From: a virus
IMG/VR virus record: IMGVR_UViG_3300007510_000799
Location: 1-38,720 of that record
DNA length: 38,720 bases
Strand: one strand, 5' to 3'
In this document: positions 5,067 through 29,264 of the stretch, in pieces
Layout of the letters: the number at the start of each line of letters is the position of its first letter
How positions within the stretch are numbered: position 1 is the first letter of the stretch
Translations under genes and position numbers: made by a program
The notes under the pieces: generated by a model
The model's database searches: none
What the model was told of the DNA's origin: nothing
The model's input: only the letters and a program-made list of their open reading frames with translations

Positions 5067-5327
5067 TTATTTTTGACAATCCGAGACAAGATAGCAGTAT
5101 TTTGACTTATTTCCTGGCTCGAAACATTCGTCAGTGCATGTTTTTCCATGCAAATGGGATTCCGTATTCCAACAAACCCACTCTTCTCCGCAAGCAGCTT
5201 GTGCATCGTAAAAGGTAACCGTTTGTAATTCTTCTGTTTCTTTTTCTGTTTCTTTTTCTGTGACAATGTCTTCGTTTCCGCAACCAAACGCGATCACCAA
5301 AGACGTGATTATTATTAGGTACTTCAT
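5067..5327 (-). CDS. Small Cys-rich lipoprotein
   Basis: 86 residues from ATG at 5327. A GTG at 5336 is also in frame. MKYLIIITSLVIAFGC is a lipoprotein signal with lipobox AFGC. The mature part opens with an acidic linker carrying a TEKETEKETEE repeat and then has a Cys-rich domain (CGEEWVCWN, GKTCTDEC, KYCYLVSDC) with seven cysteines, likely disulfide-bonded outside the cytoplasm. It resembles the lipoprotein at 2341-2565 in size, MKYL start and Cys content. Role unknown. Confidence 0.75.
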   Translation of the reverse strand: MKYLIIITSLVIAFGCGNEDIVTEKETEKETEELQTVTFYDAQAACGEEWVCWNTESHLHGKTCTDECFEPGNKSKYCYLVSDCQK

Positions 5328-5331
5328 AGTG

Positions 5332-5361
5332 ACCACTATATCATAAGTGGTATTTTTTTTT
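5332..5361. promoter_or_regulatory. Inverted repeat ACCACT-8-AGTGGT with adjacent T/A run
   Basis: Arms at 5332-5337 and 5346-5351 flank ATATCATA, followed on the plus strand by A and a long T run. On the minus strand it sits just before the lipoprotein start, so it may be an operator. On the plus strand it has the form of a terminator for antisense transcripts. Confidence 0.35.
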
Positions 5362-8101: not shown

Positions 8102-8687
8102 TCTCTTCATAAGAAGTAATCCTCACTATAGTACTTATCTTTGATATATATTTCTGAGTCACATCGGAACGATTTCTACTTCTCGACTCAGCAATGAGAG
8201 ATTTTAGTTTTCTAAAACACTTTTCTGCATTTATATAAAATTCCATCGCCTCAAAAAGTGCCCCAACGGAACACCTAACAAATGACCTTCCTTTGCTGCT
8301 AAAAGCCACCATGTTATTCATTGAGTTTCGAAATTTTATTTCCACTTCGACTTCGGCATCGCTGCCAGAAGCAGTCTTGGTCCCCCAGTCTGGAAAAACT
8401 CCAAACCCCTCAAAGGTAATGCTTCCCAATGACGGGTGCCTTTCCCTGTAGTGGTGTAGTAGAGATCCCCACAGAGCGTCCATGATGCCGTGGCCCAAGC
8501 CTCGGATAACTGTATCTTTTTTGCGACCCTCGGAGAACACACAGCAAATCTCTGTTCCTTCTGTTTTGTAATTTTCTACCACCTCAATACTTTTTACCTC
8601 AAGTGCCGAGTATTCCTTCTTGAGAAAATCTCTTATTAGTTCTGATACTGACTCTCTTTCCAGTTCTTCAACCGTTTTTTTGCGCAT
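8094..8687 (-). CDS. Stand-alone LeuA regulatory (dimerisation) domain-like protein
   Basis: 197 residues from ATG at 8687 (TAATG junction). Residues 63-160 resemble the C-terminal allosteric domain of 2-isopropylmalate synthase: GLGHGIMDALWGSLL corresponds to the G-x-G-P-V-D-A-A helix, TFEGFGVFPDWG to the D-Y-x-V strand, SGSDAEVEVEIKF to the G-x-D-A-x-x-x-V-x-V strand, and SKGRSFVRCSVGALFEAMEFYIN to the G-x-S-x-D-I-x-x-A-S-x-x-A helix. No catalytic HMGL-like TIM barrel is present. In LeuA this domain binds leucine. Here it could bind an amino acid or just be a reused fold. Assignment by eye, moderate certainty. Confidence 0.65.
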   Translation of the reverse strand: MRKKTVEELERESVSELIRDFLKKEYSALEVKSIEVVENYKTEGTEICCVFSEGRKKDTVIRGLGHGIMDALWGSLLHHYRERHPSLGSITFEGFGVFPDWGTKTASGSDAEVEVEIKFRNSMNNMVAFSSKGRSFVRCSVGALFEAMEFYINAEKCFRKLKSLIAESRSRNRSDVTQKYISKISTIVRITSYEEID

Positions 8688-11182
8688 TATTCTATTCTTT
8701 CTACTGAAGAAGAGACTTTGAAGATCTTCTCGACCCCCTTCAGTCTTCTAATATCCCTCAAGATGGAAGCCTTGGCGTCTTCTGGGGCGCGGATGCTCCC
8801 TGGAGTGCTTGGTATGAATTTGACCGACAGACCGGCTATATGCCTGCTTTCTGATACTCTCCTGTTTGATACCACGACAGTAACAATGGTGACGCTCGGT
8901 ATAGCTCTTGCTTCTGCGAGCATGTCCTCAAGCCCTCGATCTTCGGTAATCGAGTATCCTATCATACAATAAAACTTGTAAATACCCATCTGTCTGGATC
9001 TAGTCTGGTCTTCGCCAAGGTATGAGGCTATCTCATTGTCCAGATCAAAAGACTCGTTTAAAGATGAGGCTTGCGGAAGCGGGAGATCTTCGGGCAATTT
9101 CCCAGCTTGCTTTAGGACATCATATAGATTACCAAGTGCTTGAAGAAGTGCTTCATCCGAAACATTGCCTAGCTTCCAGTCATCAACAAAAGACAGGTAG
9201 TGTCTCACAGTCCTGTCCGTTTCTCTCTCTCCAGAAGCAATCTTTAAAAGAGCCTTTGTAGAATCAGTGAGCATGTCCAACCTTGCTTGCGCCTCATCTC
9301 TTATGTTTTGCCGCACACTCTGGAATGTGTCTCCGACCGCTGCTTGAACTTTGGAAAAATTATTGTCGATAAATCTTACCACCTCCAGCGTAGCATCTAT
9401 CGCTTCCTGGGATACTGCTGTATCATCTATACCTATTGTCACATAAGCCTGCAAGTCATTTTGCAAAGACTCTGCGCCTGAACGGTTGCCCACGAGCATG
9501 ACCTTTAACAATTTAGGCATAGTAAGCTGTTTTACTACCTTCGGGGGCAAGTCAGATATTGGCAATTCCAACTGCTTATTGAGATATACTAAGATCCTCT
9601 GTTGAAGGGCTCCCAACCTTGACACTACAGCGTTGGTGAGTCTTTGACTGTGGGATATCATTGCAGGTCCTCTAACCTGGAGACCACTGGCTTTCCCTGC
9701 GTTCTGCACCACCTTCAAATCAGTAAGTCTATCAATTGCAGAAGACTTTATGCCAGTCAATCTAAATGTGTCTGATTTAAACTCAATAAGTTCATCACCG
9801 TAATCAAGATCTTGATCCCAGGTAAAGTTTTTTAACTGGCTGCCGACATCTTCCATCTTGTCTGCTAAATCCAAGAATGCGCCCTGTGCTATGTAACCTT
9901 CATTTTGCAGGAACCTCTCAATTACAGACTTTGCAGCGTCATATTTACTGTCCCACTCCAATAATTCATCAAGAAAACTCTCGTAACCATCAGGGTTGGG
10001 CTCGTAACCTTCCGTTGACATATCCAGCCTGAAGCTAGTAACGCCGCTATAATCGGATATATCAACCTCTTCTGCGTAAATGCTTGCGTTGTTGTCCAAT
10101 GCTTCTCGCACCTCTTCGGACAGATTGTGTAACGCTCTCCATTCAGATGGAAGCGGATACTTGCCATCTTCAAACTTTTCATTTGGAATTTCAATAGTCA
10201 TACCGCCGTTAAAATAAAAGTACTCTGCATCCACATCGTAGCTGGAGTAGGCATTTTGCATTTGCGAATGGTATTGTCGCTCTAGTTCCTCTGCCTTTTC
10301 TGTAAAAGCTTCCGTTGGGTCGGGAGGACTATCCATCATACTTTGATAGCCGGCATCCATGATACCAGATAATACGGAATCGATCTCTTCCTGCTCCTCT
10401 TCGTCAAGATCATCGTAAGGGTTCTGCCCAGTTCTAGAATGATTTAAAGCAATCGCTCTTCTCACCTCGACGTAGGCAAGCTGATCGTCAGTGGCGTCGT
10501 ATGCTTCTTCAAAATCCCCTTCTTGGTCGAACACCAAGGCTATCTTATGATTTTCGTCATCTGGAGGGATATTATCCAACCTTAACATAATAAACCCTTT
10601 GCCGTCTTGAGTGTACTGATTAAAATAGTTTCGGGCCTGAGTGGCAGAGATGCACCATCTTGTGTTCTTTCCGTAATAGCATGATGCGTTCTCATCAAAT
10701 GGTCTTACACCAAGGATGTCGTTGTTATCATAGACGATCTCGGACCCTTCAATGGCTTCTTCCTTTTCTTTGGCTTTCTTTTCCTTGCCACTCGGAGCTA
10801 ATTTCTCGATAGCTTGCTGAAGCTGGGCTGCATTATACTTGTAGATGTCTTTCTCTTCCATCCGTTGTTGATTTTGTTGGAATTTTGTGATGAGATCCAT
10901 AATCTCTTCACCAATTTGCAAAACATCAGCACTATTTTTAATCTCTTCGGCGTTGTCACCTTCAAAGGCAATATTTACCTCTCTCGCCCAATACATCAAG
11001 TATTTGGATACGCCCTTCGGACCTAGAGTATTCTCTATTTGTCTGCGAGCCCAGTTAATCCAGCCTGACTCGTCAAGTACCTTGTACTTTGCTTTTACAT
11101 CCTTGACCCTTGCCTCCAGTAGCATGGCGGGGTCTTGATCTTCTTTTAGAAATTGTTTCCATTTGGCATGAAAATTTGACAT
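8687..11182 (-). CDS. Large phage protein with TRWCIS motif, unknown function
   Basis: 831 residues from ATG at 11182 (in-frame GTG at 11200 lies inside the likely -10 box). The N-terminus SNFHAKWKQFLKED is of a kind seen in virion-associated phage proteins. At about residue 165-195, YYGKNTRWCISATQARNYFNQY, followed by FIMLRL and KIALVFDQEGDFEEAYDATDD, resembles a W-C motif domain I have seen in other phage proteins of unknown function. Residues 240-440 are strongly acidic. The C-terminal 120 residues include two beta-alpha segments with SVTIVTVVVSNRRV and HIAGLSVKFIPSTPG. It may be a virion or packaged protein. It follows a terminator and promoter and heads a unit ending in 7590. Confidence 0.75.
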   Translation of the reverse strand: MSNFHAKWKQFLKEDQDPAMLLEARVKDVKAKYKVLDESGWINWARRQIENTLGPKGVSKYLMYWAREVNIAFEGDNAEEIKNSADVLQIGEEIMDLITKFQQNQQRMEEKDIYKYNAAQLQQAIEKLAPSGKEKKAKEKEEAIEGSEIVYDNNDILGVRPFDENASCYYGKNTRWCISATQARNYFNQYTQDGKGFIMLRLDNIPPDDENHKIALVFDQEGDFEEAYDATDDQLAYVEVRRAIALNHSRTGQNPYDDLDEEEQEEIDSVLSGIMDAGYQSMMDSPPDPTEAFTEKAEELERQYHSQMQNAYSSYDVDAEYFYFNGGMTIEIPNEKFEDGKYPLPSEWRALHNLSEEVREALDNNASIYAEEVDISDYSGVTSFRLDMSTEGYEPNPDGYESFLDELLEWDSKYDAAKSVIERFLQNEGYIAQGAFLDLADKMEDVGSQLKNFTWDQDLDYGDELIEFKSDTFRLTGIKSSAIDRLTDLKVVQNAGKASGLQVRGPAMISHSQRLTNAVVSRLGALQQRILVYLNKQLELPISDLPPKVVKQLTMPKLLKVMLVGNRSGAESLQNDLQAYVTIGIDDTAVSQEAIDATLEVVRFIDNNFSKVQAAVGDTFQSVRQNIRDEAQARLDMLTDSTKALLKIASGERETDRTVRHYLSFVDDWKLGNVSDEALLQALGNLYDVLKQAGKLPEDLPLPQASSLNESFDLDNEIASYLGEDQTRSRQMGIYKFYCMIGYSITEDRGLEDMLAEARAIPSVTIVTVVVSNRRVSESRHIAGLSVKFIPSTPGSIRAPEDAKASILRDIRRLKGVEKIFKVSSSVERIE

Positions 11183-11188
11183 AAACTT

Positions 11189-11217
11189 ATTATACCTCAC
11201 TTTTAGTAATTAGTAAA
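11189..11217 (-). promoter_or_regulatory. Promoter with perfect -10 for the 831-residue protein
   Basis: TTTACT (11212-11217), 17 bases, TATAAT (11189-11194) on the minus strand. The -10 ends 7 bases before the ATG at 11182, so the transcript would be nearly leaderless. Confidence 0.65.
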
Positions 11218-17935: not shown

Positions 17936-18538
17936 TTACTTCTTGCTTATTCTTCTAGCGATAGCTTCCTTGAGAATCCTCTTGGTCACTCTATCAGTCA
18001 CATTGTTGATAACCTCTTCGAGCTTTTCTTCGTCAATGTCGACTTCCATAAGTTCCTCGGGCTCCTCTTCGACACCCAAATCTTCGCCCTCTGGCTCCAA
18101 TTCTGGTTCTGGCATCAGAGAGTCCTCTTCTGGTGCGTCTCCACCGGAAGCGTCCAGGATTTTCTGAAGCGTTTCTATTGCAACTCGAAGATTTTCAACT
18201 TCTTCCGATGCTATGGAAACTTCCGCCTCGATTTCGCCTTCGGGCTCTTCAGCGTCTAGATCCATTTCTGGCTCTGCGTCCATTGGAGGCTCGTCTAGCG
18301 CAGGCTCAGGGACTTCTTCCTCATCCCGAAGTGCTTCTAATTCGTTAATCCCTGATTCATTAACACTGTTCTCTTCCTCTTCGAGAGTGTCAGTGTCTTC
18401 AGAGACTTCAGCTTCTTCAACCACCTCTTCTTCTTCTTCCTCCTGAAGGAAGTTTGCGGTTTCGCTGAGTGGTGCGAGGCTGGCTAGCTTCATGAAGCGA
18501 CGTATCGTGGATTCTTGTAGTAAGTTTTTCTTGCTCAT
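17936..18538 (-). CDS. Highly acidic phage protein, virion-associated type
   Basis: 200 residues from ATG at 18538 with AGGAG 7 bases upstream. SKKNLLQESTIRRFMKLASLAPLSETANFLQEEEEEE is a start seen in many marine phage proteins: a short helical tag TIRRFMKLA then a run of Glu. Residues 35-120 are a disordered acidic stretch with Pro and Met repeats (EPALDEPPMDAEPEMD). Residues 150-200 are a helical end (EKLEEVINNVTDRVTKRILKEAIARRISKK). Role unknown; possibly capsid- or scaffold-linked. An 82-base leader precedes it. Confidence 0.82.
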   Translation of the reverse strand: MSKKNLLQESTIRRFMKLASLAPLSETANFLQEEEEEEVVEEAEVSEDTDTLEEEENSVNESGINELEALRDEEEVPEPALDEPPMDAEPEMDLDAEEPEGEIEAEVSIASEEVENLRVAIETLQKILDASGGDAPEEDSLMPEPELEPEGEDLGVEEEPEELMEVDIDEEKLEEVINNVTDRVTKRILKEAIARRISKK

Positions 18539-20917: not shown

Positions 20918-23900
20918 CTATCCTAGCATCTTAAAATTTGAACTCATTCTTCTGGTGCTGAAGCCCCATTGTGGATTCCAATCCAACTTCATCATATAAG
21001 GTCTGTTGACTCTTACTATATCCTTTTCTGGTCTAACTCCCCAGCACCTTATTGTGTTTGTTTCATTGTTTTCATCAATGACTCTCACAATATAATAATC
21101 CTTTCCGGTCTTCGTTTTCTTCCTTATTACTTCTCTCGGAATGCACCACACAACACCACCCAGCTCGGAGTCGTACTCGCTGATAGGAGGCACCATGTAC
21201 TTGTCCAGGCTTCTCCTTATGTTTTCTGCCATCACCAAGTCAAAGGGAAACACACCAGTGAGATCTATCTTATACTGAATTACTTCTTCTTCTGTGAAGT
21301 CCCCTTCCAGTGCATACTTCTCTATATTTTCGCTCAAGTTCTTTTCTTTGCGAGGACGGTCAACGGCGATGGCAGACCAGAAGTGCTTACGACCAGTGAA
21401 CCGGGAGTCGATTAGACAGTCTATCGCCCCTGATCTGCAAAGAACGTCAAGTGCCTTCTTGTTTAACTTAGAGTAAATTATGTTTTCATTAAATAAGAAG
21501 TCTTCAACAGTATTGAACGGTCTATTCCTGGTGACCTGCTCAATAGCCTTTTCACCCAAACCCTTCACTGAAGTGAGCGGCTGGATGAGTGTATTGGAAT
21601 CTTCCGAGATCTCCCAGACCATACCGGATGTATTTATGTTGAGAGGGTGAATGTCGTACCCCAAAGACTTTGCAATATTTATTGCCTTTTCCTTTCTCGT
21701 TTCCGGCTCCTTGTCCAAAAAAGCGGCAATCCACTCTGAAGGATAGTAATTCAACAGCCAAGCACATTGAAACGATAAAATGCAATAAGAAACCGCGTGG
21801 GACTTGTTAAACCCATAGCCTGAGAAATACTCAAAAGTCTCCCAAAGCTCTCTCGCTTCATGGTCCTTCATGCCTTTCTCTAGGCAACCTCTCTTAAACT
21901 TGTCGAAGATCTTGTCTTTCTCTTCTTGTACTTCTCCGGTGCCTTTCTTTGTTAACAGCTTTCTTAGCTTGTTTCCCTCATCCAGGGACAAATCCTTCCC
22001 CAGCTTATGAGCCAGCATAGCAATTTGCTCCTGGAAAATAAGAAAACCATATGTCTCTTTTGTTACGCCCCTCACATACGAATTGATGTACTTCACGCTT
22101 TCAGGATCATTCTTTGCCGATATAAACTTCTTGTCTACATTAGCGCCCAAAGGTCCAGGTCTATAAATACTCGTTATGGCAGACAATTCAATTAAATTAT
22201 TTGGCTTAACATTTTTGCAAAACTTTTGTGCGCCATCCTCAGTAAACTGAAAAATCCCTGCCCACTTACCGTCGTGAAAAACGTTCTCCCAAACCTTAGT
22301 ATCTGAAAAATCTAGTCTATCCGGGTGGAGGTTGTTTTCATAGAAACTTCTCACGTCTTCGAACGTTGGGTCCTTCACCCCTTTATGCCTAATAAGTATG
22401 TGCCTAATCGCGCCTTCGATCATTCTCAAGGAAGCGAGACCAAGCAAGTCAAACTTAATAAAGCCCATTGGCTCAAGTTGGCGAACGTTTTGTCCCTCGC
22501 TCCAGGGTGTTTGCCTGATTCCACCAGAAGCGATGATCGGCATCCACTCGTTCAAATTCTCTCCCACCACGACGCCGCCGGCATGGCGCGAACAGGACCG
22601 TACCTGACCGTAAAGAGCCTCTACATGTGTCTTTATATGTGGATACTTCTTTAAGAAATTCTTCAGAGAGTCGGAATACTCCATCACCTCGTCAAATGTT
22701 GGATTATAGACACCAGAGGTAATACCGTGCTTCTTTTTTGCCAATGGTGTCGCTTCGTAAATCATCTTACTAGTCACAGTATTCACTTCTGTGAAGGGCA
22801 CGTCATAGAACTTTGAAATATCCTTAATAAGGGACCTCAATTGCAACGTGTTCCAGTTCGAAATGGGGACAACTGTGTTCTCTCCCCACTCCTTAATAAG
22901 TTCTTCTTTCAATTGCATGGGTTCTGCTGTATCAAAATCAATGTCTGGGTAGCCAGATCCAGTCTTAGTCAAGAACCTCTCAAATTGCAAACCGTACTTA
23001 ATGGGATCAACCTGGGTGATACCTAGAGCATATGATACAAGAGACCCTGCTGCGGAGCCTCGGCCGGCTCCTACCAATTGTGTCTGCTTCGCCCTATCTG
23101 CAATTGCCTTCATTGTGAGAAAATATTTACTAAACCCTCTCGACTCAATGATCTCGATCTCCAATGCGGCGCGGTCCAAATATACTTGATTCGCAGACAA
23201 GCCAAGCTCTCTCAAGCCTTCTGATGTCAATTTCTGTAGAGCTTCCCCCTCTGTCGTATCTTGCGGGACTACGAAATCAGGAAGCCTTACCGTATTATCC
23301 GGATAAAAGGACTCAATGCGCTCATGAGCAATTCTGTGTGTTTCCGTGATAGACTGGTGGATGAGCCCGTCGTCATATTCTGCGTCACAAAGTTTAGAAT
23401 ATTCCTTATAAGATTTCCACATTTCATCGCCATTTTTGGGATACAGTTCGTACCCTATCTCTTCAACATCAATTGGCAACTCGTTACTCATCCACTCTGG
23501 GCGCTTGCCAAGCCAGCCCAGGCGCTTATATAGCTCTCGGTCTTTCCAAGCCGTTGGGTTCGGATAATGACTATCTGCTGTTGAGATTAGGGGCAAACCA
23601 AACTCATGATGCATCTGGATTATACACCTGTTTAATTCGTGCTGTTCTGGAACATTGTTCCATTGCAATTCACCGTACCACCTGTCTCCAAAGATTGATT
23701 GCATCTTGTGTGTTGTTCTTCTAAAAGCCGCGAGAACGGCGTCCTCGCCGTTGTCTCGGTTCTCCCAATAGCACCCTGCATAGACACCCCCAAGACACGC
23801 TGAAGACGCTATAATGCCCTCGTTATGCCTCTTTAGGAGTGCATAATCAACCCTAGGGTATCGGTAGAAGTGATTCTTATCATAGCTAGAGGATATCAGC

Positions 23901-24349
23901 TTGAATATGTTTTTCAAACCTTTCTGATTCTGTGCGAGAAGAATAAGGTGCCGTCTTCTGTTCAGAATATTCTTCATCGCTTTCTTAGACTCTTCGTTCT
24001 CCACAGTCGTACCAGACTGGGAATTGTCCAACTTTTTATTCTTCTTATCCTGTAAAGCCTTTTCGTATTCTTTTCTCCAATTCGCAATGGAGGGGAGGAA
24101 ATAAGCCTCTACACCATAAATTGGTTTAAAGCTTTTACCGTCTGCTTGCATCTTCTTTGCGTGGAGCACCTGATATGCTAAACCGTTTGCATTGCCATGA
24201 TCTGTCAGTGCTAATGCGTCCATTCCGTTTTGGTATGCAAAGTCCATATGCTCCTGTGGATAACCCAGGGCATCAAATATGCTCCCGGCGACCGAGTGTG
24301 CATGGAGACCTACAAAAGGGATCGACGTTTCAATTCTGGATTTGTTCAA
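20918..24349 (-). CDS. dnaE: DNA polymerase III alpha subunit (DnaE-type) with intact PHP domain
   Basis: 1143 residues from TTG at 24349, with GGAGG 6 bases upstream. PHP domain: HAH at 16-18, LTDHGN at 48-53, YGVEAYF near 78, ACLGG near 184 and ADSHY near 258-262, so its metal ligands appear intact and it may proofread. Polymerase: GRGSAAGSLVSY at about 429-440, catalytic PDIDFD at 468-473, and KFDLLGL at 632-638 with the third Asp. An HhH region (EDFLFNENIIYSKLNKKALDVLCRSGAIDCL) near 970 and OB domain with KTKTGKDYYIVRVID near 1080. It copies the phage genome. No clamp or clamp loader is in the window. Confidence 0.97.
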   Translation of the reverse strand: MNKSRIETSIPFVGLHAHSVAGSIFDALGYPQEHMDFAYQNGMDALALTDHGNANGLAYQVLHAKKMQADGKSFKPIYGVEAYFLPSIANWRKEYEKALQDKKNKKLDNSQSGTTVENEESKKAMKNILNRRRHLILLAQNQKGLKNIFKLISSSYDKNHFYRYPRVDYALLKRHNEGIIASSACLGGVYAGCYWENRDNGEDAVLAAFRRTTHKMQSIFGDRWYGELQWNNVPEQHELNRCIIQMHHEFGLPLISTADSHYPNPTAWKDRELYKRLGWLGKRPEWMSNELPIDVEEIGYELYPKNGDEMWKSYKEYSKLCDAEYDDGLIHQSITETHRIAHERIESFYPDNTVRLPDFVVPQDTTEGEALQKLTSEGLRELGLSANQVYLDRAALEIEIIESRGFSKYFLTMKAIADRAKQTQLVGAGRGSAAGSLVSYALGITQVDPIKYGLQFERFLTKTGSGYPDIDFDTAEPMQLKEELIKEWGENTVVPISNWNTLQLRSLIKDISKFYDVPFTEVNTVTSKMIYEATPLAKKKHGITSGVYNPTFDEVMEYSDSLKNFLKKYPHIKTHVEALYGQVRSCSRHAGGVVVGENLNEWMPIIASGGIRQTPWSEGQNVRQLEPMGFIKFDLLGLASLRMIEGAIRHILIRHKGVKDPTFEDVRSFYENNLHPDRLDFSDTKVWENVFHDGKWAGIFQFTEDGAQKFCKNVKPNNLIELSAITSIYRPGPLGANVDKKFISAKNDPESVKYINSYVRGVTKETYGFLIFQEQIAMLAHKLGKDLSLDEGNKLRKLLTKKGTGEVQEEKDKIFDKFKRGCLEKGMKDHEARELWETFEYFSGYGFNKSHAVSYCILSFQCAWLLNYYPSEWIAAFLDKEPETRKEKAINIAKSLGYDIHPLNINTSGMVWEISEDSNTLIQPLTSVKGLGEKAIEQVTRNRPFNTVEDFLFNENIIYSKLNKKALDVLCRSGAIDCLIDSRFTGRKHFWSAIAVDRPRKEKNLSENIEKYALEGDFTEEEVIQYKIDLTGVFPFDLVMAENIRRSLDKYMVPPISEYDSELGGVVWCIPREVIRKKTKTGKDYYIVRVIDENNETNTIRCWGVRPEKDIVRVNRPYMMKLDWNPQWGFSTRRMSSNFKMLG

Positions 24350-24542
24350 TTACATCCTCCAAATCAGCCTTGATGGCGGTTAAATCCTCTCTAACCGACG
24401 AACTAGCGAGCGTAGAAAAGTAGAACTCATCTACAAACGATTTTTGGTCATTCGTTAAATCCTCGTATTTATCTGGCATAGATGCCGACTCCTTGATATA
24501 CCAAGGAACGTTTTGATATACCTTAAAAACCCTCTCACTCAT
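24330..24542 (-). CDS. Small helical protein, unknown
   Basis: 70 residues from ATG at 24542 (ATGA junction). MSERVFKVYQNVPWYIKESASMPDKYEDLTNDQKSFVDEFYFSTLAS, then LTAIKADLEDVIEQIQN. Helical and acidic. It lies directly before dnaE with a 20-base overlap, so translation is probably coupled. Role unknown. Confidence 0.7.
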   Translation of the reverse strand: MSERVFKVYQNVPWYIKESASMPDKYEDLTNDQKSFVDEFYFSTLASSSVREDLTAIKADLEDVIEQIQN

Positions 24543-25426
24543 TCGCTCTCCTCCTGTACTAATTTTTTATATTTAGAAGAACCAAGCATAATTTTACTCG
24601 GTCTGTTAATTTCTTCGCTTTCCTTGGAAACAAGGTATTCTCGCAGTCCTTCCCACGAATCAACTCTGTAGTACCAAGGAATCTCTAACTTTGATTCTTT
24701 GTTTATTTTAGCAGATTTAAATATTTTGTCAAGACTAAAAAGCCTCGAAGACCATCTTTCTGCTATCGGCAAACTCTTATCTCCGCCAGAGCACGACTGT
24801 TTTACTCCTGCGACATACTCCTTGTATTCCGAGGCGTCCATCGTAAATCCAAGATATTCCCCATCTTTTATCGTCTTGCCCTCATGACAGATAAAAAAAG
24901 GATTCATGCTGGAGATCCTCTTTCTATGCTTGCTGACTACCCAGGGCGGGTAAATCCCGTAAGGAAATGTAATGTAATATCTACTCGGTATCAACCACTT
25001 GCTGATCTTGTCGCTCATTATGAATGCTGTTAGTGCTCCATGCAAGGCACTCCAGCCGAGGCTGTCTCTCCTATCTCTGTCTTTGGGGTGTATTGGGGTG
25101 TAAAATATCGGTATTTGTCTCCTGTGTTCGCTTGGGTACTTAACAAATCCGGACTTGTCCAAGTAATACGGGTCCTCAATATAATCCCCGAGGCGATGCT
25201 TTATTAGTGGCTGCATATCATCATTGCATACGATCCATATTGTTTCGCAACCTGCATACGCGCACTCAACAACCGCTCGTTCTACAGCAAGGTAATCTTT
25301 GGCTATCGGATTCAAGCAATCGTGCCAAGGAAAACCGAAATCAAATTTCGGGCCCGCTACGGGGACGATGCCTGCCAAATGAAAGGCTCTTATGTTTCCG
25401 TTACCTTCCTCCAACATACTTTTCAA
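24539..25426 (-). CDS. NTP-transferase-like (GT-A fold) protein
   Basis: 295 residues from TTG at 25426, or a few codons less (ATG 25417). LAGIVPVAGPKFDFGFPWHDCLNPIAKDYLAVERAVVECAYAGCETIWIVCNDDMQPLI: A-G-x-x-P-x-A-G loop, L-x-P-I, then a helix with E-R-A-V-x-E-x-A-x-A-G and I-x-I-V-x-N-D-D, all in the order of sugar-1-phosphate nucleotidyltransferases. The usual G-x-G-T-R-(L) loop is altered to GPKFDFG. DQ-W-P-type end unassigned. It may add a nucleotide to a sugar or modified base. Catalytic activity not certain. Confidence 0.68.
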   Translation of the reverse strand: MKSMLEEGNGNIRAFHLAGIVPVAGPKFDFGFPWHDCLNPIAKDYLAVERAVVECAYAGCETIWIVCNDDMQPLIKHRLGDYIEDPYYLDKSGFVKYPSEHRRQIPIFYTPIHPKDRDRRDSLGWSALHGALTAFIMSDKISKWLIPSRYYITFPYGIYPPWVVSKHRKRISSMNPFFICHEGKTIKDGEYLGFTMDASEYKEYVAGVKQSCSGGDKSLPIAERWSSRLFSLDKIFKSAKINKESKLEIPWYYRVDSWEGLREYLVSKESEEINRPSKIMLGSSKYKKLVQEESE

Positions 25427-26165
25427 CCACCTTCTCCGGTGACATCTTTAAGAACTTCACAGTCTCGCTGTTCTGAAAGACATTCTTATTTAAGTTCACC
25501 ATTTCTCTCCGCGTTGGCTCTACCCTTATACTTGATCTTCTTTCATTTCCTATGCCGTTAGTTCTCATATGGGACTCCACCTTAAATTTAGCCATCGTAT
25601 CAGAATAATCGAAATCGTTAATTTGATCGTCTGTCAGATAGGACACCGACACTAGGTCTTTCTTTGTGTGGTCGCCGTCCATTCTTTCCGACTTATAGAA
25701 ATACACTTCTCTAACCAAATCGTCTCCTGTTGTGATTTTGCTTACTCCATGCTTTGCTCCGGCTCTCACATTCATCCAATCGAAAACCCTGTAAAGCGGG
25801 GCTGGTGTCTTTATTGCTTGATTTTCAAAAGATATGTTATTGTCATCGAAAATATAACACTTTTCAAATTCTACCTCTATCCTTGAGCCTGGATTAGGGA
25901 CCACAAATAACTTGTTTTTCTCTATCCTGGCGGAAGAGATGCAAGGACCAAAAGGTATAGACCCCCCAAATGACATCTCATAAACCGCCCAAGACCAGAG
26001 GCGAATATGGCTATTTGTCGATAAGCCCTTAAAGTCGACCTCTTCTTTAAAAGAATCAAATATAAACGGTCTTTGTTCAGAGTTAATTATCAGCGGATAT
26101 TTATTGTAATATGCAAACAAGACCGAAGAGAGGCAGCTCCCTATTGTGATATTCTCTAATCGCAC
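25401..26165 (-). CDS. Unknown conserved-type phage protein
   Basis: 254 residues from GTG at 26165. It begins RLENITIGSCLSSVLFAYYNKYPLIINSEQRPFIFD: a G-S-C-L-S-S-V-L-F-A-Y loop and helix that resembles a dinucleotide-binding P-loop of Rossmann type (G-x-x-x-x-(S/A)), though no G-x-G-x-x-G is present. Middle strands FEKCYIFDDN and IRVEPTRREM. I recall similar proteins beside the nucleotidyltransferase in marine phages, and here too they overlap by 26 bases. Joint function unproven. Confidence 0.65.
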   Translation of the reverse strand: MRLENITIGSCLSSVLFAYYNKYPLIINSEQRPFIFDSFKEEVDFKGLSTNSHIRLWSWAVYEMSFGGSIPFGPCISSARIEKNKLFVVPNPGSRIEVEFEKCYIFDDNNISFENQAIKTPAPLYRVFDWMNVRAGAKHGVSKITTGDDLVREVYFYKSERMDGDHTKKDLVSVSYLTDDQINDFDYSDTMAKFKVESHMRTNGIGNERRSSIRVEPTRREMVNLNKNVFQNSETVKFLKMSPEKVVEKYVGGR

Positions 26166-26168
26166 AGA

Positions 26169-28250
26169 TCACAAACAAATTCCAAGCCTAGCATCATATC
26201 TTCCCCAGGTAGGTCCACTGTTGTGGGAGGCGATAGTCCACCAATTGACCTTATTCTCCACACATGCCATCTCTGGTTCTTCAGGCTCTTCTGGCTCTTC
26301 TTCCTCTTCCTGCCTATTGTTTATACAGGCAGCCTCGTCGATTGCTTCGACGACAGCATCTGATATTGTCTGCGCATTTTCAGCCGCTCGGTTTCCACCT
26401 AGGCGATCTAATCCATTAATATGCACCGCTCCGAAGTCTACCAGGGGCTGATAACTATGAACGTTCGCTCTGTTGCCTATGATAAAAGCCATTGAACCAG
26501 AGTGAGCCATAGCGCGAGCCACATCATGAGCACCCCACTCATCCCCCTGGGCTGGCTCGTCACCAAGAACAATTGCCAATCTGTGGGTATACTGACTTAG
26601 ATCAACATCCCAGGAATCCTCCATCCCCTGTAGTGCCGCCTGTGGTCTACTGGTGCTCCATAGAATACTTTCTGGTACACCGTCATTGTCCCAATCGATA
26701 AGATCATCTGTAAAGAATCTACCTAGTGCGTCGAGGGTGTTTTCAGTCGAGCCACCTTGGTTTATTATTCCTGCGATGATATTTAATCTCAATGTATTAA
26801 CAGCGTTGGACATGTCCTCGATCGGAACCAGGGGCGGGTCCTCTATTCCTGGAACACAGTTATCCGCAGGATAGAAAAGATACGGGTCTGGTCTGTCATC
26901 ATTGCCGACAACCGCTAACATATAGCAAACGTCCGTGATGCCGTCATCAAAAAGCCTTTGCACAGAATTTCTCGTTGCGTTGAAAGCTGCTGCTAGTTCT
27001 TGCTCATTCATTGAGCCAGAGACATCGACAATCATCATCACCGCTACATTTCCTTGGTCGAAATCCTCGTCTGATATACCGTCGCAGTCATTGTCTAAGT
27101 CATCACACCTCTCTACGCCTGGTGAGACTTCCTGCAAGCAATCAAAGTACCCCTTTCCTCGTTCGCCTTCGGCATCAACGCCTTCTTCACAGAATGCTAT
27201 CCCTAGCCGACAAACGCCGCCGACGTACTGTGGACCGTCCTCTCTTCTCTCGTAAGTTATCACTTCGCCGGTCAAGATCTCTGTAGAACACAACTTTGTC
27301 AAAGGACCTCCCAGAGGACCCTCGTCTATAGCACCATCACAGTCATCATCGACGGCATTGCAAGTCTCAGGTTGGGGCACATAATCTGGATGGTCGCAAT
27401 TGCAGGCTCCTTCCTCAAAGTTTTCATCGATTTCTCCGTCGCAGTCATTGTCCAAAAAGTCACAAAGCTCTCTTGGTTCTGGTCCGCAGGCTCCGCAATC
27501 ATTTAACAAGTTTTCATCGATTTCTCCGTCGCAATTGTTATCGAAACCATCACAAATCTCAATCGGAACAAGTCCGCATTCTCCACAGGCGTTGAGAACC
27601 CCCTCGTCAATAGAGTTGTCGCAATCATTATCATCTCCATCACAAGCTTCATTCCTAGGAACTACCTCGTTCTGGCAATCTCCGTACACATACCGTATCT
27701 CGACTCCCGCATCTGTCTCTATGCTAGACTCCTCACAAAGGGAGACTCCGCTTCGACATGGTCCGTTCTTATCCGTGCCTTGAGCACCAGTATAACAACT
27801 TCTTGATAACAATTCATTTTGGGAGTTGGGTGATTCGTTGTTTCTGCCATCGCAGTCATTGTCCAAGCCATCGCAGACCTCGATCCTGGGGAAGGTAACA
27901 GGAAAACAATTTGACCAGCTTGTAACATTACAAATCCTCTTTCCGTTGGCACAAGGCCCCAGTAAGCCGGGAATATTGCAGTCCTCTCGCATCCCCAAGC
28001 GTTGGCACACTGGTGGTACTGGTGCTGCGTCGACTTCTGCGTCTACAATTGGTTGCGCTTGTATAACCTGAGTAACAAAATCCACAGTAACAGACTCGTC
28101 TTGAATGACTTGCACATCCGAAACTGATCTACTTGGTGTGTATGTCGAGGCACCCTTGTCTCTTAACAGTCTCCTGTCTTTTCCGATTGAATCGTCCTCG
28201 CAACCAAATACATTAATAACTAACAAAAACAACAAAAACTTTTTCATCAT
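26169..28250 (-). CDS. MopE-repeat and von Willebrand A lipoprotein
   Basis: 693 residues from ATG at 28250. Signal peptide MKKFLLFLLVINVFGC with lipobox VFGC (Cys17). Six Cys/Asp repeats of type C-D-x-x-D-N-D-C-D-G-x-x-D-E at about 126, 203, 233, 263, 297 and 382, as in MopE and myxobacterial surface proteins, often thought to bind metal. A von Willebrand A domain occupies 402-640, with MIDAS DVSGS (409-413), T near 502 and D at 564. Then an E/P linker and a C-terminal NWWTIASHNSGPTWG. Probably exported, lipid-anchored and host-derived. It lies between ThyX and replication genes. Phage purpose unknown: adhesion, calcium binding, or shielding the infected cell. Confidence 0.93.
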   Translation of the reverse strand: MMKKFLLFLLVINVFGCEDDSIGKDRRLLRDKGASTYTPSRSVSDVQVIQDESVTVDFVTQVIQAQPIVDAEVDAAPVPPVCQRLGMREDCNIPGLLGPCANGKRICNVTSWSNCFPVTFPRIEVCDGLDNDCDGRNNESPNSQNELLSRSCYTGAQGTDKNGPCRSGVSLCEESSIETDAGVEIRYVYGDCQNEVVPRNEACDGDDNDCDNSIDEGVLNACGECGLVPIEICDGFDNNCDGEIDENLLNDCGACGPEPRELCDFLDNDCDGEIDENFEEGACNCDHPDYVPQPETCNAVDDDCDGAIDEGPLGGPLTKLCSTEILTGEVITYERREDGPQYVGGVCRLGIAFCEEGVDAEGERGKGYFDCLQEVSPGVERCDDLDNDCDGISDEDFDQGNVAVMMIVDVSGSMNEQELAAAFNATRNSVQRLFDDGITDVCYMLAVVGNDDRPDPYLFYPADNCVPGIEDPPLVPIEDMSNAVNTLRLNIIAGIINQGGSTENTLDALGRFFTDDLIDWDNDGVPESILWSTSRPQAALQGMEDSWDVDLSQYTHRLAIVLGDEPAQGDEWGAHDVARAMAHSGSMAFIIGNRANVHSYQPLVDFGAVHINGLDRLGGNRAAENAQTISDAVVEAIDEAACINNRQEEEEEPEEPEEPEMACVENKVNWWTIASHNSGPTWGRYDARLGICL

Positions 28251-28954
28251 AACTCCATCTTAAATTCTTCATATGCCGAAACTGAGATCGGGAATTTGTC
28301 TCTTGCAATCTTGAGACAAGCTTCCGCGACTCTTTGTATTTCCCATTGTGCCCCCTTGTGAGCCCTCAACGATACAAATTTTAGCAAATTGTGAAGGTTC
28401 ACTGTACCATAGTACTCTGTATATAGGTTCTGTGGTAGCACCCCTCTCGCCTGTTCTCTACAAACTCCTGAATTAATAAGTGAATTGTAGAGGGCGATGG
28501 ATGTCTTGTTATGCCGGCGAATTGATTCACTTGGGTACCCAGAATGTCCGGTGCCATATGCATCTTGCCAAGACATAATTTTGTTTACGAATTGGTCTTC
28601 GCTTGCTTGCCTGTTGGACTTATGCTGTGCTCTTAGGTTCTCGGGTTCATAAAACCTCATGTCCACAGAAGTGTATCTACGACTAATTTCGTTATACGCC
28701 CAAGTACGGTGACGGTGATGTTGGCTCCTAACAAACAGAGGAACAACAAAGCGCATTGTGACAGTACAATGCTCAAATGGGCTAGTGTGATTGTTCCGCA
28801 TGAGATACTTAATAAGTTTAATATCTTTCTCATCCATCTCATCCTTCTCTGCTCCGAAGCTTACGCGGGCACCGTTGACAACAGATATATCAGCACCCAT
28901 ATGGTCGATATACTCCACTGCACCGATGTCGTCTCCGTAAAGATTAATCTTCAT
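28247..28954 (-). CDS. thyX: Flavin-dependent thymidylate synthase
   Basis: 235 residues from ATG at 28954 (TTG at 28957 also in frame). The ThyX motif RHR-x7-S is present as RHRTWAYNEIS at about residue 80-90. SPFEHCTVTMRFVVPLFVRSQHHRHR and ARGVLPQNLYTEYYGTVNLHNLLKFVSLR fit the family core. ThyX methylates dUMP to dTMP using methylenetetrahydrofolate and FAD/NADPH. It overlaps groES by 11 bases. Pairs with dUTPase to make dTMP. Confidence 0.96.
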   Translation of the reverse strand: MKINLYGDDIGAVEYIDHMGADISVVNGARVSFGAEKDEMDEKDIKLIKYLMRNNHTSPFEHCTVTMRFVVPLFVRSQHHRHRTWAYNEISRRYTSVDMRFYEPENLRAQHKSNRQASEDQFVNKIMSWQDAYGTGHSGYPSESIRRHNKTSIALYNSLINSGVCREQARGVLPQNLYTEYYGTVNLHNLLKFVSLRAHKGAQWEIQRVAEACLKIARDKFPISVSAYEEFKMEL

Positions 28955-29264
28955 CAATCCCTCTTAGGACACCCACAACATAATTCTCCAGAACAACATG
29001 AAAGTCCTTACCCTTATAGTGAACCTTCTCGATCATGCCTCTGTCCACAATAATCTCTCCATTGTCTCTCTTGAGACGGAGAAAAGAAGTAGAACAATCA
29101 GGGGCGACATCTAAAACTGTTGCAGACACATACTTGTCGCTCAAGGGCTTATAATCTTCCGGCAGCAAAATACCGCTTGCGTCTTCTTTCTTTTCCTCAC
29201 GAATGTGTGGGAAAACCAACAAATGTCGATTTACTGGCTTTAACTTGTTTGGAAGATTACGCAT
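28944..29264 (-). CDS. groES: GroES-like co-chaperonin
   Basis: 106 residues from ATG at 29264, 8-base overlap with the previous gene. KLKPVNRHLLVFPHIREEKKEDASGILLPED is the family start with the mobile loop (SGILLP), and IIVDRGMIEKVHYKGKDFHVVLENYVVGVLR the C-terminal barrel strand. It caps the GroEL ring. This is about 13 kb upstream (in transcription) of groEL, in a separate unit, unlike the bacterial groES-groEL operon. It is slightly longer than the usual 97. Confidence 0.88.
   Translation of the reverse strand: MRNLPNKLKPVNRHLLVFPHIREEKKEDASGILLPEDYKPLSDKYVSATVLDVAPDCSTSFLRLKRDNGEIIVDRGMIEKVHYKGKDFHVVLENYVVGVLRGIDED

Follow-up and report, generated by a model that had tools for sequence, protein, structure and literature searches.

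Most of the known phage lipoproteins that act on the surface of the host are tiny coliphage exclusion proteins. MopE of Methylococcus capsulatus is a secreted protein and, to our knowledge, it has no von Willebrand A (vWA) domain. Its copper site comprises two His residues and a modified Trp, which is a Trp-derived kynurenine (PMC3423442). Infected cells make exclusion proteins at an early stage, and among these Llp of phage T5 is an outer-membrane lipoprotein that blocks the receptor FhuA (PMC9586334). The window analyzed here, a complete IMG/VR virus record of 38,720 bases, is a fragment of the genome of a phage that we assume to be marine. It contains a gene whose predicted product combines MopE repeats with a vWA domain, and its features and neighbors are arranged as follows:

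28247..28957, minus strand: thyX, upstream of the lipoprotein gene (PF02511, E 3.1e-49)
26169..28250, minus strand: MopE/vWA lipoprotein gene, 693 aa (ORF call, PF11617 E 1.3e-20, conserved family)
28200..28250, minus strand: predicted type-II signal peptide (aa 1-16) with lipobox VFG-C; predicted lipidated Cys17, followed by Glu (+2) and Asp (+3)
27849..27875, minus strand: MopE repeat 1, CDGLDNDCD, aa 126-134 (motif positions, PF11617)
27618..27644, minus strand: MopE repeat 2, CDGDDNDCD, aa 203-211 (motif positions)
27528..27554, minus strand: MopE repeat 3, CDGFDNNCD, aa 233-241 (motif positions)
27438..27464, minus strand: MopE repeat 4, CDFLDNDCD, aa 263-271 (motif positions)
27336..27362, minus strand: MopE repeat 5, CNAVDDDCD, aa 297-305 (motif positions)
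27081..27107, minus strand: MopE repeat 6, CDDLDNDCD, aa 382-390 (motif positions)
26310..27065, minus strand: vWA domain, aa 396-647 (model alignment to solved vWA domains and the folded vWA domains of relatives)
27012..27026, minus strand: MIDAS loop DVSGS (D409, S411, S413), a full metal site with T502 and D564
26169..26309, minus strand: acidic linker and variable C-terminal tail, final residues Cys-Leu (penultimate Cys in relatives)
25401..26165, minus strand: u254, conserved gene starting 3 bases past the lipoprotein stop, kept in both carriers and non-carriers at the locus
24539..25426, minus strand: nt295, conserved gene, likewise kept in carriers and non-carriers, nucleotidyltransferase-like by eye
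20918..24349, minus strand: dnaE (Pol III alpha), the marker gene for the phage tree

Architecture of the encoded lipoprotein

The MopE motif PF11617 matched the window protein at 73.8 bits (E 1.3e-20) against a Pfam cut-off of 27, which by profile score is far above chance, and it was likewise matched by 25/25 relatives. The Pfam vWA signal of the window copy was weak (PF13519, E 0.21), and PF00092 was matched by 14 of the 25 relatives. As the model of the whole protein was poor (pLDDT 46), its vWA part alone was used; here, residues 400-647 match solved vWA domains with Z 14.6 and rmsd 3.4 (172 aligned residues). A vWA domain of the commoner subtype, taken from a relative and folded alone, reached pLDDT 90 and pTM 0.90, and matched solved vWA domains with Z 17.9. 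At the level of modeled structure, the vWA identity of the window domain is settled despite the weak Pfam score. Its MIDAS set is complete (D409, S411, S413, T502, and D564); DxSxS and the equivalent of D564 are invariant across 33 diverse family members, while the commoner subtype does not conserve the MIDAS Thr. Conservation extends beyond the MIDAS to the Glu503, Asp507, and Gln568 positions, which are common to both subtypes. vWA domains with a MIDAS are classic adhesion domains, and our models match, among other solved structures, integrin I domains, TRAP, and VWF A domains. These matches favor an adhesin-like lipoprotein through which infected cells would aggregate, attach, or escape predation and thereby aid phage spread, with exclusion not being its purpose, although we regard this as unlikely overall.

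The N-terminus of the protein reads MMKKFLLFLLVINVFG followed by CEDD, and Cys17 is unchanged across 25 aligned relatives. The window protein thus bears a bacterial lipoprotein signal, from which lipidation is predicted. A signal and lipobox were also recognized in 77 of 89 distinct phage ORFs, a lower-bound set. Asp at +2 of lipoproteins is the inner-membrane retention signal in E. coli. Since the window protein has Glu at +2 and Asp occupies this position in just 1/77 of the lipobox-bearing phage ORFs, an outer-membrane location is to be expected. The +3 residue is Asp or Glu in 57/77 lipobox-bearing homologues, and this conserved acidic residue may be a sorting signal. At the other end of the protein, the penultimate Cys is shared by 90% or more of the 25 relatives, and the last 4 residues include a Cys in 57/77 phage ORFs with a recognized lipobox. 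Six Cys-Asp repeats, a vWA domain with an intact MIDAS, and a lipobox had all been proposed in a first-pass annotation of this DNA, and each of them holds up in these analyses.

Genomic setting and distribution among phages

The stop codon of thyX and the start codon of the lipoprotein gene overlap by 4 bases (ATGA), as originally annotated, and a good GGAG lies ahead of the start codon. The gene resides inside a nucleotide-metabolism/replication operon rather than among virion genes, which agrees with the non-virion setting first described, and from this position, expression may be early. No family was found for u254 or nt295 in Pfam or PHROGs, and u254 had no match among PDB sequences. The N-terminus of u254 resembles a Rossmann fold and nt295 resembles a nucleotidyltransferase; the two may form a nucleotide-sugar pair. 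Elsewhere in the window, a second small Cys-rich lipoprotein (WxCWNxxSxxHGxxC; 5067-5336, minus strand) is conserved at 43508-43750 of the syntenic relative G001. In addition, a motif like MKLIMENWRxFLNE opens many otherwise unlike ORFs (window 8687-11200 and 17936-18538; G001 at about 62-85 kb) and is perhaps a targeting or capsid-entry tag.

G001 is 190 kb in length, and its RNR and DnaE are 86% and 85% identical to those of the window, respectively. It encodes a T4-type terminase, portal, major head protein, baseplate wedge, and tail sheath; therefore, the window phage is an uncultured T4-like myovirus. In G001, thyX is missing and the lipoprotein gene is still kept before u254, so the bond of the gene is not to thyX. 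Related genes occupy other genome positions in other phages, and this freedom to lie elsewhere would be compatible with a lipid-anchored virion component or a part of an envelope-disruption (lysis) apparatus. Even so, the lipoprotein signal directs the protein to the envelope, the window gene sits between thyX and replication genes, the G001 copy (~20 kb) is remote from the genes for sheath, portal, capsid, and terminase (~131-190 kb), and the protein has no spanin-like features. A virion or lysis role is therefore very improbable.

The same ORF occurs at the same place, around thyX, RNR, and dnaE, in many IMG/VR contigs. When 104 contigs were placed in a DnaE tree, the 36 carriers at the thyX locus all fell within one clade of T4-like myoviruses with an SH-aLRT of 100 (37 rows, consisting of the 36 carriers and one undetermined contig), and the gene is absent from the locus in the 51 contigs outside this clade whose locus was resolved. 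Restriction of the gene to a single clade can nevertheless be ruled out, as non-carriers at the locus often hold a copy elsewhere. The gene was found in 14/23 long relatives, with 8 copies at the thyX/u254 locus and 6 in varied gene neighborhoods elsewhere. In the lipoprotein tree, a lipoprotein from another genome position (L341) nests within the thyX-locus group with 100/99 support, and therefore the gene is exchanged among phages and shifts its place in the genome. A further copy, L131:12394-13668 (minus strand), also lies away from the thyX locus, on a phage contig of 146.7 kb; its product is a short lipoprotein (424 aa) that has three MopE repeats and a vWA domain.

A wider IMG/VR scan identified at least 308 related stretches, and lipobox, repeats, and vWA domain occurred together in 68/77 loci among the matches listed. 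With all loci pooled, and with at least two MopE repeats plus a vWA domain required for entry, IMG/VR contains 89 or more distinct phage ORFs of this kind, as given by simple ORF calls in the relatives; the family ORFs carry 3-8 MopE repeats plus the vWA domain. No MopE/vWA lipoprotein was found in 50,697 named phage records, PHROGs contained no convincing family (2/25 members matched, best E 0.0068), and our literature search found no MopE phage protein. The architecture had initially been considered rare in phages, which is wrong for uncultured phages given the number of distinct ORFs and of long relatives that carry it. The window gene is one member of a widespread gene family of uncultured phages and not a rarity of a single phage.

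Cellular relatives and the host

PF11617 was carried by 49/58 Myxococcota, 2/120 Pseudomonadota, and 0/14 control genomes, in a comparison covering these three groups in which one of the two positive Pseudomonadota genomes was a pre-selected center. Matches in genome-wide scans were mostly repeat-only and came mainly from Myxococcota/Deltaproteobacteria MAGs. Two lipoproteins from Myxococcota MAGs, L274 (629 aa) and L418 (599 aa), share with the phage protein a signal peptide II, a linker, 3-4 MopE repeats, and a vWA domain in the same order, and differ from it by an extra C-terminal domain. The shared architecture lends itself both to the adhesin-like role discussed above and to a moron derived from a Myxococcota-like host, which would retain a host-like role in metal or nutrient capture or in envelope upkeep. 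The Myxococcota enrichment of PF11617 agrees with the latter, and so does the linker of one phage copy (L016), as its DAG-type pattern was found in 20/58 Myxococcota compared to 8/100 Pseudomonadota genomes; it fits Myxococcota, yet is found elsewhere too. However, L274, which is the best cellular protein, is just ~25% identical to the phage protein, the copper site of MopE sits in another domain, a profile of 25 relatives matched no solved structure at E 0.001, MopE* included, and among phages the family is both old and diverse. A host-derived moron with a host-like role thus seems quite unlikely.

When Myxococcota genomes were searched with the phage vWA domain (a few candidates scored per genome), there were few matches, and no cellular protein was found that approaches the phage relatives. 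There was one strong match in a Myxococcota genome (G376, E 1e-35). This candidate host homologue was rejected, since its contig (C1, with L423, L419, and L420) is itself a related phage whose composition is unlike that of the bin, with a GC content of 45.7% in a ~67% GC bin and a tetranucleotide correlation of 0.10-0.18. The contig is probably a binning error, or else a weak host hint. In the lipoprotein tree, the nearest rows by path are phage, and the sole cellular row sits on a branch of 5.9, with an unsure placement among very long branches. The first-pass annotation had expected such a tree to reveal the host unless the closest homologues all lay in other phages or in non-myxobacterial hosts; they are all phage, and therefore the tree cannot name the host. 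Overall, its observations stand, as does the part of its interpretation concerning lipoprotein architecture, Myxococcota enrichment, and the operon, whereas the supposed rarity and the host read-out do not.

Acidic residues after the lipobox Cys are a Bacteroidota export signal, and their presence here raised the prospect of a Bacteroidota host. Strong Shine-Dalgarno use argues against this, as such sites precede 47% and 43% of phage genes compared to backgrounds of 13% and 10%. Because MopE repeats are typical of Myxococcota, a Myxococcota-like host is plausible, albeit unproven, from sequence comparison, and the family narrows the host search for these uncultured T4-like phages.

Divergence and a possible role at the cell envelope

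The window copy and the commoner subtype share ~20% identity in the vWA domain, and the two are clearly related according to hhalign (probability 94.8, E 5e-8, 206 columns); by sequence, the window copy is a divergent subtype. Both subtypes occur in tandem in L016 (8358-11859) and L173, with the second copy truncated, and the first tandem copy in L016 contains the DAG-repeat linker. We infer that the window line gained or duplicated a divergent copy and then lost the old one. In unsaturated pairs, the dN/dS of the lipoprotein gene is ~0.03-0.08, and therefore the lipoprotein is functional and under strong purifying selection, though such selection alone does not discriminate in favor of an adhesin-like role. 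The lipoprotein also diverges faster than the replication genes. Between L017 and L022, RNR and DnaE are 95% and 97% identical, compared to 48% for groES, 47-53% for the lipoprotein, 39% for u254, and 65% for nt295. The region from groES to nt295 forms a sharply bounded island of 39-79% identity inside 95-97% RNR/DnaE flanks, which suggests a possible allele-exchange hot spot or a changing specificity. Fast divergence is as expected of a specificity gene, but could reflect relaxed constraint on the repeats instead of an arms race. A diversity-generating retroelement was also considered as the source of variation in the C-terminal tail and was rejected, as a search of 8 long relatives, in which the positive controls were detected, found no reverse transcriptase (RVT_1).

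The most likely reading is that of an envelope lipoprotein with a MIDAS binding domain, serving superinfection exclusion or surface remodeling; surface modification is plausible from the sequence, and an effect of the protein on the infected cell's envelope is probable. We tentatively favor, at a little below an even chance, a phage-made, lipid-anchored envelope protein that most likely masks a receptor or surface structure and so excludes superinfecting phages. The lipoprotein would be exported by Sec, lipidated at Cys17 by signal peptidase II, and placed, as predicted, in the outer membrane of the infected cell. There, its MopE repeats would probably bind a calcium-like metal and form a stalk stiffened by disulfides and metal, at the far end of which the vWA domain, judging from its fold and residues, would bind a protein ligand through the MIDAS metal. 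By binding or masking either the receptor that the phage itself uses or some other structure of the surface, it would exclude superinfecting phages and keep progeny from sticking to infected cells. Exclusion is placed as the leading purpose, and changes in surface adhesion second, because the best precedent is T5 Llp. Points against exclusion are the size and the operon position, both unlike those of known exclusion lipoproteins, and the variable MIDAS Thr of the commoner subtype. A broader proposal, about which we have somewhat more doubt, is that of a large undescribed family of mobile, adhesin-like phage lipoproteins that decorate infected cells and set surface specificity through a MIDAS-dependent vWA domain. 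If the proposed surface role is true, the vWA domain governs which phages can superinfect or to what the infected cell adheres, which makes the window gene a testable candidate for surface specificity. The occurrence of a ~700-aa lipoprotein that is clade-wide, common in relatives, and absent from the named records scanned implies a frequent surface-acting phage function that is missing from studied isolates.

Among known systems, MopE of M. capsulatus and the window protein both carry the PF11617 Cys/Asp repeat motif. The vWA proteins of Gordonia phage GMA3 and Thermus phage P74-26 have the same fold, compared by structure only at 10-19% identity, and we know of no MopE repeats or lipobox in these vWA proteins of isolated phages. 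Relative to the Myxococcota lipoproteins, the phage proteins form their own divergent groups, with Glu503, Asp507, and Gln568 conserved in the family. Llp and the T1-type Cor resemble the window protein, given its predicted location, in being phage-made lipoproteins that act at the infected cell's outer membrane (PMC9586334). However, Llp and Cor are small, single-domain proteins, and the llp gene adjoins a receptor-binding gene, whereas the window protein, at 693 aa, combines MopE repeats with a vWA domain, and its gene lies in a replication operon between thyX and u254/dnaE. By analogy, the window lipoprotein would work like the Llp/Cor kind, without being a member of it, as both its size and its gene position differ.
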